Part shown: positions 1,717 through 4,084 of the stretch, in pieces | Position numbering within the stretch: position 1 is the stretch's first letter | How the letters are laid out: each line of letters opens with the position of its first letter | Origin: a virus | Length of the DNA: 28,980 nt | Reading direction: 5' to 3' (one strand) | IMG/VR virus record: IMGVR_UViG_3300025101_000122 | Coordinates: 1-28,980 of that record | The notes under the pieces: generated by a model | Databases searched by the model: none | What the model saw: the letters and a program-made list of their open reading frames with translations, nothing else | What the model was told of the DNA's origin: nothing | Position numbers and translations under genes: made by a program

Positions 1717-2145
1717 CTATTTTTTCATTTTCATTATATGCTTGTTGTGATGCTCACGATGACAGTTAGAACATAGTATCTCACATTTACCCATAATCTC
1801 AGTTAGTATTCTATCTACTTTACCATCATAGAAACTTTTTTCTGATAAGTTTCTGATCTCTCTTGCTATTGCAAACTTCTTTCTTTTAGTATGGTGAAAG
1901 TCTAACGCACTAAAGTTTTTATCATAACCACATTTAATACATTTTATATCTACGTAGTTTGAAAGTTTGTAAATAAATTGTTGCTTCCAATGTCTGTGTC
2001 TTTCATCTCTAGCTTTGTTTCTGCAATCCTTACAATGTATCTCAGGTTTCTTGTTTTCTCTTTTATAGTATCTATTGAATGGTTTGTGCTTTTTACAAGT
2101 AGCACAAACTTTACCTTCCTTGTCCTCTATATTTCTTACATCCAT
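1717..2145 (-). CDS. HNH endonuclease (free-standing, homing type)
   Basis: This 142-residue protein has an N-terminal zinc ribbon (C14-x2-C17, then HC-x2-C near residues 37-41). A C-terminal HNH nuclease follows: CIKCG near residue 73, LDFHH near 86 and ILCSNCHREHH near 125. The CxxC pairs would hold a structural zinc, and the HH and CHREHH elements form the beta-beta-alpha-metal active site. HNH proteins nick or cut DNA; in phages they are usually selfish homing genes or act with terminase. Here it sits between the lysis genes and the fibre, far from the terminase, which favours homing. The only good ATG lies inside the preceding basic ORF, giving a 35-base overlap; no downstream start would keep the first CxxC. 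Confidence 0.85.
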   Translation of the reverse strand: MDVRNIEDKEGKVCATCKKHKPFNRYYKRENKKPEIHCKDCRNKARDERHRHWKQQFIYKLSNYVDIKCIKCGYDKNFSALDFHHTKRKKFAIAREIRNLSEKSFYDGKVDRILTEIMGKCEILCSNCHREHHNKHIMKMKK

Positions 2146-2266
2146 TCTTCGTACCAGTATAATATTTTCCTTGTTTTTGTGATGTGTGTCTTTTCTTTGA
2201 ATGAATACCTTTTCTTTTTTTCTTTGGTTTAGCTTCGTATGCTTTTGGAAAAAACCTTTTAGCCAT
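2111..2266 (-). CDS. Small, very basic phage protein (51 aa)
   Basis: ATG at 2266, stop TAA at 2111-2113. Roughly a third of the residues are Lys or Arg. It carries the pattern KKRKGIHSKKRHTS, then YYTGTKNGCKKYRGQGR at the C-terminus. Small proteins with a GIHSK start and a KxYRGQGR end recur in marine phages; I know of no assigned function, though the charge suggests nucleic-acid binding or packaging with DNA. The start overlaps the last 8 bases of the holin gene (ATGGCTAA), typical of translational coupling, and the end overlaps the HNH gene by 35 bases. Recognition of the C-terminal motif is from memory of the family and is not checked. Confidence 0.7.
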   Translation of the reverse strand: MAKRFFPKAYEAKPKKKRKGIHSKKRHTSQKQGKYYTGTKNGCKKYRGQGR

Positions 2267-2660
2267 TGTTCTTAACCTTTTCGTATGACCTTCCTCCGAA
2301 ATAAGCTGATACAGTAACCATCAAAAGAACTTTCAAAAGTTCTATCCATTCGCTTGATACTTCGAACTTTATACTTCCTGAATCAACAAATACTAAAACA
2401 ACTACAGAAAAAATTAAAAATAATAAGACTATAGGTCTTACCGATTTACTAAGTACGTTGCCATTAATCATATCATACTTCCATCTCTCGGTAACATTCT
2501 TTTGCATATCAGATTCAGCTTGAATCCAAATCTGTTCCATCTCTTTTTGAAACTTTGCTTTTTCGTCTTTAGTTCTTATGAAACGATCTGCAACACCTGC
2601 TATCTTATCTACAACGCTTACACCTGCATCACCAAATATCTTTGTTAATATCTTATTCAT
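2259..2660 (-). CDS. 3TM-type holin
   Basis: This 133-residue protein resembles the Holin_3TMs (GTA/phage) family. An amphipathic N-terminal helix (GVSVVDKIAGVADRFI) is followed by a charged helix to about residue 60 and the family block ERWKYDM...LSKSVRPIVLLFL. Two strong membrane segments follow, about residues 75-93 and 106-122, and the end is the typical YFGGRSYEKVK. Holins form holes in the inner membrane and time lysis. The start codon overlaps the stop of the preceding 39-residue membrane protein (ATGA), and the end overlaps the basic protein start by 8 bases, so these genes are translated as a chain. The length matches the family. Confidence 0.82.
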   Translation of the reverse strand: MNKILTKIFGDAGVSVVDKIAGVADRFIRTKDEKAKFQKEMEQIWIQAESDMQKNVTERWKYDMINGNVLSKSVRPIVLLFLIFSVVVLVFVDSGSIKFEVSSEWIELLKVLLMVTVSAYFGGRSYEKVKNNG

Positions 2661-2776
2661 TTTTTGTTATCTTGTTCAACTGTCCAAACATAGATAATAA
2701 AAGCACCAGTAAGCAATGCACTACAAAGAGTGAATCCCAAAATGGCATAATCCACATTCGCCAAGTTCACATCCAT
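2657..2776 (-). CDS. Small single-span membrane protein (39 aa) in the lysis cassette
   Basis: ATG at 2776 (RC of CAT at 2774-2776), TGA at 2657-2659. The protein starts MDVNLANVDYAILGF, has one hydrophobic helix of about 20 residues (AILGFTLCSALLTGAFIIYV) and ends VEQDNKK. The stop codon overlaps the holin start (ATGA), and the start overlaps the stop of the upstream 63-residue gene (TAATG). A one-span protein tightly coupled to a holin suggests an antiholin, a pinholin-like accessory or a spanin part. There is no lipobox. The function is inferred from context only. Confidence 0.65.
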   Translation of the reverse strand: MDVNLANVDYAILGFTLCSALLTGAFIIYVWTVEQDNKK

Positions 2777-2967
2777 TACAATTCATCTATTAATTCAATT
2801 AATTTACTTTCAATTCTCAAATAAATTTCTATACGTTGTACCCCTTCCCATTCTTTCAATCCGTCTGCAACATCCATTAAGGTGTTAATTTTTGATAAAG
2901 TTTGATTAACTTTTAACTGACTATTAACATCACTTTCAGATAAACTTACATCGCTTAATAATTTCAT
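2776..2967 (-). CDS. Small helical protein of the lysis cassette, unknown function (63 aa)
   Basis: The protein is short, acidic and probably all helical, with heptad-like hydrophobic spacing (SQLKVNQTLSKINTLMDVAD, then RIEIYLRIESKLIELIDEL). I do not recognise a family. It has no membrane segment, signal peptide or cysteine. Its start codon carries the A-rich leader AAATAAATAATATG, two bases after the HMA gene stop, and its stop overlaps the next start (TAATG). The tight packing says it belongs to the lysis or late accessory cassette, but nothing in the sequence gives a role. Confidence 0.7.
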   Translation of the reverse strand: MKLLSDVSLSESDVNSQLKVNQTLSKINTLMDVADGLKEWEGVQRIEIYLRIESKLIELIDEL

Positions 2968-2968
2968 A

Positions 2969-3289
2969 TTATTTATTTTTCCAAATTATGTAATTACTGT
3001 TCTGCCAAAAATCATTAGTGTTTTTAGTATCAATAACTACTGATTCTTTATTAATGCTAAATCCTGCATCTACGATTGCATATTCAATAGCATAAAAATC
3101 AATATAATGATTTTTTTTTAATTGTATTTCGTAAGTGACTTCTTCAATATTAGATTCGACATTTTCTATGAAGTAAACTTTTTCTAATTGTTTCTGAACA
3201 TTAAGTGAACACATACTACAAGTAAGTCCATCAACTTTGAATGTAATATTATTTAAAGATAAAACTAGAAATAATATTTTAAAGATCAT
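2969..3289 (-). CDS. HMA (heavy-metal-associated) domain protein, exported or membrane-anchored
   Basis: This 106-residue protein has a short hydrophobic N-terminus (MIFKILFLVLSL), a possible weak signal or anchor. An HMA ferredoxin-like domain follows (residues about 14-85): FKVDGLTCSMCSLNVQKQL with the metal-binding pair C24-x2-C27, a middle FIENVESNIEEVTYEIQL strand and a C-terminal AIVDAGFSI strand. HMA domains bind Cu(I), Zn(II) or Hg(II) and pass them to partner proteins. GLTCSMCS is the form common in flavobacterial periplasmic HMA proteins, which suggests capture from the host. It overlaps the upstream membrane-protein gene by ATGA inside the lysis cassette. A tail of about 20 residues (NTNDFWQNSNYIIWKNK) matches nothing I know. 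Its role in infection is unknown. Confidence 0.8.
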   Translation of the reverse strand: MIFKILFLVLSLNNITFKVDGLTCSMCSLNVQKQLEKVYFIENVESNIEEVTYEIQLKKNHYIDFYAIEYAIVDAGFSINKESVVIDTKNTNDFWQNSNYIIWKNK

Positions 3290-3588
3290 TTTTTATAGAC
3301 TTTATCTTCTAAACTATTTAATCTTCTGTTAGTTTGTTCTTCATATTTTTCTAGTTCTTTAATAAGATAATCTATTTTTTGATTGATGACCTTAGTATCA
3401 TCTTGCTCAATCTTATATGCAGGTAGAGTTTTTGCAACTTCAATTTCAGAAGTTAATTGTGAATAAGTCATTGTAAGCGATATGATACCACCAACTAACA
3501 ATCCAAGAAATTTAATATCAATCTTTACGTCGCTTTTTCCATCGCCATCAAGATCAACTGCTACTTTTTTATTTGTTATGTCATCCAT
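3286..3588 (-). CDS. Single-span membrane protein with an acidic DxDGDG loop and coiled coil (100 aa)
   Basis: I place the start at the ATG at 3588 and not at a TTG at 3612, because the ATG lies just after the DUF5675 stop. Layout: an N-terminal VAVDLDGDGKSDVKIDI segment that looks like an EF-hand or dockerin-type calcium loop (residues about 9-25), one membrane helix (FLGLLVGGIISLTMTYSQL, about 27-45), then a charged coiled coil to the end (DYLIKELEKYEEQTNRRLNSLEDKVYKK). The topology resembles small spanin- or holin-like proteins of flavobacterial phages. It ends in an ATGA overlap with the HMA gene. A lysis role is inferred from position and topology; I cannot name the family. Confidence 0.7.
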   Translation of the reverse strand: MDDITNKKVAVDLDGDGKSDVKIDIKFLGLLVGGIISLTMTYSQLTSEIEVAKTLPAYKIEQDDTKVINQKIDYLIKELEKYEEQTNRRLNSLEDKVYKK

Positions 3589-3598
3589 ATTTTGAGAT

Positions 3599-4084
3599 TT
3601 AGATTTCTTCAAAATTAATTATTTTAATTGATAGATGTTTTTGCGAATCTAAAATATCTGCTAGTATTGGATAAATTCTTTTATAACAATCTGTAGATTG
3701 TCCTAGAAATCCATCTTTCGTAATATTTTGTGATACAACATTTCCAACCAATAAACAACCATCTGTGTCATTATCAGTATTACCACAATGAATAAGAATA
3801 TACTCAAAATTAGGAACATCATTAAGCTGTAAAACACCTCTCTTATCATTATGAAGATTTGGAAAACGCTTTTTGTATTTAGCGAAATAACCTCCTTCCG
3901 TTCTGTATTCAATTTGATAAGTCCCTTCAGGTATGCGAGTTTCTCCATAAACTTTGACCTCACGTTTTTCATCTTCGAGTACAAAGCATAGAAAATCTTT
4001 TTGGTTTGTTTCATCATTTACTAAATATAAAATTCCAAGTGTACTTTCATTTTGTGTACTAAATCTATACAATTCTAATCTCAT
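3599..4084 (-). CDS. DUF5675 family protein, candidate lysis enzyme
   Basis: The 161 residues match the DUF5675 pattern: EDEKREVKVYGETRIPEGTY (about 37-56), GGYFAKYKKRFP, GVLQLNDVPNFEYILIHCGN, then NTDNDTDGCLLVG near residue 102. The IHxGNTxxDTxGCLLVG block resembles the His...Gly-Cys catalytic block of L,D-transpeptidase-like folds, so a cell-wall function is plausible but not proven for the family. It is the first gene of the lysis cassette, overlapping the tail-terminator gene by 4 bases, and no other gene here looks like a muramidase, amidase or peptidase. It is therefore the best endolysin candidate. It has no signal peptide, so release would rely on the holin. Confidence 0.75.
   Translation of the reverse strand: MRLELYRFSTQNESTLGILYLVNDETNQKDFLCFVLEDEKREVKVYGETRIPEGTYQIEYRTEGGYFAKYKKRFPNLHNDKRGVLQLNDVPNFEYILIHCGNTDNDTDGCLLVGNVVSQNITKDGFLGQSTDCYKRIYPILADILDSQKHLSIKIINFEEI

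Follow-up and report, generated by a model that had tools for sequence, protein, structure and literature searches.

An HMA-domain gene with an invariant CxxC site as optional cargo in the lysis modules of uncultured Bacteroidota phages

The lysis module and its HMA gene

The window analysed here, a 28,980-base IMG/VR virus record, carries on its minus strand a chain of genes that runs from a tail terminator through DUF5675, a transmembrane (TM)/coiled-coil gene (coil A), an HMA gene, a 63-aa gene, a 39-aa ORF, a holin and a 51-aa basic protein to an HNH endonuclease, tightly packed by ATGA and TAATG overlaps. The features that concern us are the following.

3599..4084 (-): DUF5675 gene (Pfam, E 1.7e-25)
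3286..3588 (-): coil A gene, ~100 aa, with a DLDGDG loop, one TM segment and a C-terminal heptad coiled coil (alignment)
3286..3289 (-): ATGA stop/start overlap of the coil gene and the HMA gene (sequence)
2969..3289 (-): HMA gene, 106 aa, predicted exported-type HMA metal-binding protein (Pfam, fold, homologues, dN/dS)
3254..3289 (-): N-terminal hydrophobic segment, residues 1-12, a very short signal sequence or anchor
3209..3220 (-): putative CxxC metal site (CSMC), residues 24-27, in the first loop of the fold, with the only two cysteines of the protein
2972..3055 (-): C-terminal tail, residues 79-106, TKNTNDFWQNSNYIIWKN, a stub of the host C-terminal part by alignment with host proteins
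2776..2967 (-): 63-aa gene, which takes the slot directly by ATGA when HMA is absent (gene-order table, junctions)
2657..2776 (-): 39-aa single-TM ORF, previously unlisted, with a TAATG overlap to the 63-aa gene and an ATGA overlap to the holin gene
2259..2660 (-): holin gene, GTA_holin_3TM-like (PHROG_3427 holin, E 1.2e-19)
2111-2266 (-): small, very basic protein, KPKKKRKGIHSK...YRGQGR, adjoining the holin

The first-pass annotation had placed an HMA domain with a hydrophobic N-terminus between the DUF5675 gene and the holin, coupled by ATGA to a membrane protein with a DxDGDG segment, and each of these elements was recovered. The product of the DUF5675 gene is probably an endolysin of the L,D-carboxypeptidase/transpeptidase type: its relatives carry annotations of that kind as well as peptidoglycan hydrolase, and the role is suggested by an HCGN...[DH]GC[IL] motif resembling the catalytic motifs of L,D-transpeptidases (YkuD) and by the M15 peptidase that serves as endolysin in its place in related phages. 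The holin falls slightly under the Pfam GTA_holin cut-off (23.7 bits against 24.8). Counterparts of the 39-aa ORF, 26-39 aa long, occur in ten relatives, and it is possible that this single-TM product acts as a second holin or antiholin. Most of the fetched phages encode a relative of the very basic protein (155 hits). For coil A, the start is more likely ATG 3588 than TTG 3612, since the homologous gene of locus L007 starts there; the charges flanking the TM segment (2 versus 1) do not settle its orientation. About 140 relatives of coil A were found in IMG/VR, two of which weakly match the holin/anti-holin family PHROG_10340. The best matches of the terminase are from Bacteroides and Phocaeicola phages (~35% identity) which, together with the kinship of the HMA protein described below, points to a Bacteroidota host.

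The HMA protein begins MIFKILFLVLSLNNITFKVDGLTCSMCSLNVQ; a longer version is ruled out by in-frame stops just upstream, in the window and in its relatives. It clears the Pfam HMA gathering cut-off (PF00403, 26.3 bits against 24.8, residues 16-77), its AlphaFold model adopts the ferredoxin-like HMA fold with a mean pLDDT of 82, and the matches listed by Foldseek against the PDB are all HMA metallochaperones or metal-binding domains of P-type ATPases (CopA, Atx1, MerP, CopZ). Searches of PHROGs gave no convincing family, and those of the BFVD viral structures no match below E 0.01. In HMA domains, TCxxC is usual for Cu(I)/Hg sites and DCxxC for Zn/Pb sites, and for that reason we prefer Cu(I) as the ligand that the site would bind. 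Residues 5-12 have a mean Kyte-Doolittle hydropathy of 3.24, values over 8 residues range from 2.5 to 3.6 in 16 phage homologues, and the hydrophobic N-terminus, which is kept in kind across all phage homologues, aligns with host signal peptides. Export of the protein is nevertheless only presumed, because the hydrophobic stretch is just ~8-9 residues long and is followed by a poor cleavage site. There is no lipobox cysteine. Within the C-terminal tail, the pattern F..NSNYI.WK is nearly invariant among the phages.

Phage relatives and host kinship

Scans of viral contigs retrieved 19 contigs with the same HMA type and scans for the coil families, made without HMA, added four more records, for a total of 24 including the window. 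The gene is therefore not a one-off, as had been considered at the outset: in 23 of the 24 records it lies directly behind a coiled-coil gene while the remaining cassette varies, the exception (L099) being close to a contig end. All 22 distinct phage HMA proteins, a set that includes the second phage type described below, contain precisely two cysteines, which are those of the CxxC motif, and 14 of them occur in loci fetched without an HMA query. Between close members dN/dS is ~0.04-0.2, and it is higher, 0.29-0.51, against the divergent L100, where values are near saturation. These ratios point to strong purifying selection which, combined with the 24 records, argues that the gene is more than a chance occurrence.

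The carriers form a family of uncultured, mostly marine-type Bacteroidota phages. In 50,697 records of isolated phages, no HMA relative was found beyond the generic HMA of P-type ATPases, MerP or unannotated contigs. A search of 400 Flavobacteriaceae genomes produced no phage-type HMA, just host-type genes and one weak broken frame, and no match to a coil-B query; both are weak negatives, with few candidates scored and no positive control. The literature searched holds nothing on HMA domains or metallochaperones in phage lysis and describes nothing similar. In the part of a flavobacterial phage survey available to us, the lysis genes are endolysins, holins and unimolecular spanins, with nothing HMA-like among them (PMC8776804).

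A second phage type, represented by L101:7947-8255 and L102:6797-7105, is an HMA-only protein with a normal-looking signal peptide, encoded between dUTPase and dCMP deaminase genes. Its difference from the coil-linked type indicates at least two separate acquisitions of such a gene by phages, and its location suggests that an exported HMA-only protein is useful outside lysis modules too.

A first scan of genome contigs for HMA relatives gave no match because its patterns were phage-specific. In bacterial genomes, a pattern around GLTCSMCS identified 478 relatives, of which 80 were kept, almost all of them from Bacteroidota. The typical host protein, of ~180 aa, combines a signal peptide with an HMA domain and a C-terminal region in which a CxxxxxxxCC-type cluster is often present, and its gene adjoins HYC_CC_PP and MerP-like HMA genes. 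The host neighbourhood L014 encodes a protein in which a CPMHP motif was recognized by eye, a motif typical of heavy-metal-binding domains. Host and phage proteins share the export segment and an HMA domain with GLTCSMCS, with up to ~47% identity over the domain, and can be aligned along the whole phage protein; the phage copy differs in lacking a C-terminal part of ~75 residues, in its shorter N-terminus and in its placement in a lysis module. In a tree of the domain (70 columns, with host rows all chosen by one motif), the coil-linked phage sequences form one clade (support 100/99) on a long stem (1.09), branching among the secreted Bacteroidota proteins. This single clade and its long stem make the capture of the host gene look single and old. 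Having Bacteroidota relatives and being missing in close phage relatives, the gene is host-derived and lies outside the phage core, as is expected of an auxiliary metabolic gene. The original suggestion of a metal-binding gene of possible host derivation embedded in a lysis module is thus borne out, metal binding itself being predicted from the motif and the modelled fold.

The slot behind the coiled-coil genes

The HMA gene occupies a swap slot as optional cargo; the slot may hold the HMA gene, a gene for an exported thioredoxin-fold (Trx-type) protein, a lipoprotein gene or nothing. In the lineage of the window, at least 17 loci are without cargo (DUF5675, coil A, 63-aa gene). The HMA gene stands between coil A and the 63-aa gene in the window and in L002, L004, L005 and L007-L009. 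A second coil gene, coil B, appears in the orders coil A, Trx, coil B, 63-aa gene (L168), coil A, Trx, coil B, HMA, 63-aa gene (L006) and coil A, Trx, coil B, lipoprotein, 63-aa gene (L257, L258). In other lineages, with an M15 peptidase as endolysin, the same units recur with their partners exchanged: coil A is paired with Trx and coil B with HMA in L094, L096 and L097, as opposed to coil A with HMA and coil B with Trx in L095.

The Trx-type family, with 299 matching stretches in IMG/VR, is far commoner than HMA in the same slot and is coupled to coil genes in the lysis modules of many Bacteroidota-type phages (L006:1431-1742, L304:318-632, L097:2878-3210 and many others). PHROGs offered no useful match for it. 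A profile of 45 sequences matched thioredoxins and one thioredoxin-fold domain of glutaredoxin-3 in the PDB (best E 0.0014), and the structure model (pLDDT 87) matches thioredoxins with moderate TM-scores of ~0.4-0.5. The pairs of coil with Trx and of coil with HMA have in common the slot, the ATGA coupling and the coiled-coil families. They differ in that the Trx type is much commoner, has a clear signal peptide (by eye) and carries KWNxxN (NxxN) where thioredoxin has WCxxC, so that, judged from its motif, the redox site is lost in the Trx type whereas the cysteines are strictly kept in the HMA type. Across these phages it is thus a common arrangement that a coil gene is followed by one for a small exported α/β protein.

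Such persistent adjacency (19 distinct pairs of coil and HMA, 122 of coil and Trx), the swapping of partners between coil types A and B, the layout of a TM segment plus a coiled coil, the Trx partner devoid of its catalytic cysteines and the weak holin/anti-holin matches of coil A would all fit a subunit function, in which the inner-membrane coiled-coil protein has the HMA or Trx-fold protein as its partner in the periplasm, just as an i-spanin has its o-spanin, and docking contributes to disruption of the outer membrane or to control of the holin. However, neither exported protein has a lipobox, in many phages the coil gene is directly followed by other genes (63-aa gene, M15, lipoprotein), and a purely structural use leaves the invariant CxxC unexplained; we consider this arrangement rather unlikely. 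A further family in the same lysis modules, a lipoprotein with the signature THVLALTExGDTVKI...YNVVGYD, is sometimes found directly behind a coil gene (L094:3384-3845, L100, L257, L010:8305-8664) and is a candidate o-spanin. That the HMA protein replaces the o-spanin in the window is not favoured, as L010, L093, L094, L097 and L100 carry both HMA and the lipoprotein.

The junctions themselves are informative. The overlap is exactly ATGA in 18 of 19 distinct coil-HMA pairs and in 75 of 96 distinct pairs of coil B and Trx, and where HMA is missing, the start of the 63-aa gene lies in the same ATGA in 12 of 16 cases; the coupling thus belongs to the slot and by itself is no proof of partnership. 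A frameshift fusion of coil and HMA at the A-rich junction was considered and rejected, since L007 and L011 are without a slippery run yet keep the ATGA. The 3' ends of coil A and coil B have 78% nucleotide identity at the stop codon, compared with 0.33-0.53 further up and 41% just after. Across all loci, the ends of both coil types converge on a near-identical consensus, AATTTAGAAGATAAAGT.TATAAAA.ATGA. The convergence likely marks a recombination junction for cargo genes, the alternative being shared ancestry of the ends.

A hot spot of this kind could retain a neutral hitchhiker, an accessory gene with a function outside metal handling and lysis, and both the identity peak at the stop codon and the many different occupants of the slot would suit such a gene. 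Strong purifying selection and an invariant metal site are difficult to reconcile with it, and we judge this origin of the pattern unlikely.

Placement in the lysis module and a CxxC whose cysteines are invariant and the only ones in the protein would also be expected if HMA were a regulator, with the motif sensing periplasmic copper or thiol state and speeding or delaying the holin or endolysin via the coiled-coil protein. However, close relatives whose cassette is otherwise the same can do without the gene, and the literature searched offers no precedent, which leaves regulation by sensing with a low probability. Optional presence, along with the separate capture outside the lysis module, argues against an obligatory part in lysis in general, while the strict adjacency of HMA to coil genes is what keeps both the partner and the regulator readings alive.

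A proposed function and comparison with known systems

Taken together, the reading that we prefer, with a likelihood somewhat short of even, is that of a late-expressed, exported protein that binds a soft metal of the Cu(I) type, a host-derived and optional cargo of the lysis module that buffers the metal or passes it on. A gene of the secreted HMA family of the host, itself located among envelope metal-handling genes, would have been captured once, long ago, keeping the export segment and the HMA domain and losing the C-terminal part. Its gene, linked in a chain with the membrane coiled-coil gene and the rest of the lysis genes, would be translated late, and in the periplasm the CSMC site of the protein would bind a soft metal, most likely Cu(I), which it may buffer or hand on during takeover and opening of the cell. 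A direct role of the HMA protein in lysis is possible. In the phage, no metal transporter or target protein is encoded near the HMA gene. This counts against the preferred reading, as do the doubtful export signal and the gene's place immediately behind a coiled-coil lysis gene in 23 of the 24 records and several cassette layouts, which a free-standing accessory gene would not require.

The interpretation originally offered for the locus is partly supported. One of its proposals, that the protein poisons the host envelope by releasing or redirecting metal, draws on the position among lysis genes and nothing else; HMA proteins of this type keep the metal that they bind shielded, the window encodes no metal importer and no precedent was found, so that we regard poisoning as highly improbable. 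More speculatively, and with little expectation that it holds in full, the phages of Bacteroidota may possess modular two-gene envelope units, each with a coiled-coil anchor in the inner membrane and an interchangeable exported partner (HMA, a dead Trx fold or a lipoprotein), the HMA version tying the last step of lysis to the metal or thiol state of the periplasm. Little has been mapped of the way in which these phages breach the outer membrane and, as far as the literature searched shows, there is no earlier description of metal-binding proteins in lysis modules. Because near-identical cassettes with HMA, the Trx fold, both or neither occur as a natural series, the role of the exported partners can be tested directly, in a swap slot of the lysis module with what is likely a visible recombination junction.

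Among known systems, MerP, CopZ, Atx1 and the HMA domains of P1B-ATPases have the same fold and CxxC site as the phage protein, which differs from MerP and CopZ in that the phage has no mer or cop operon. Its scores are below the NCBIfam equivalog cut-offs (30 against 91 for CopZ_Bs and 21.4 against 92.55 for MerP), so that it qualifies as an HMA-domain protein on fold and score and is placed by these cut-offs outside the curated CopZ and MerP families. Two-component spanins (Rz/Rz1) combine in a lysis module, much as the coil and HMA genes appear to, a gene for an inner-membrane TM segment and coiled coil with an overlapping gene for a small exported protein, and by definition the partner must be an outer-membrane lipoprotein (PMC6139136). 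In the phage module the second protein is instead a folded HMA domain without a lipobox. A pattern scan found no lipobox ORF in the window and, since the required lipoprotein partner was not found there, the published definition of a spanin component excludes the HMA protein, although the layout of the two genes resembles that of a spanin.
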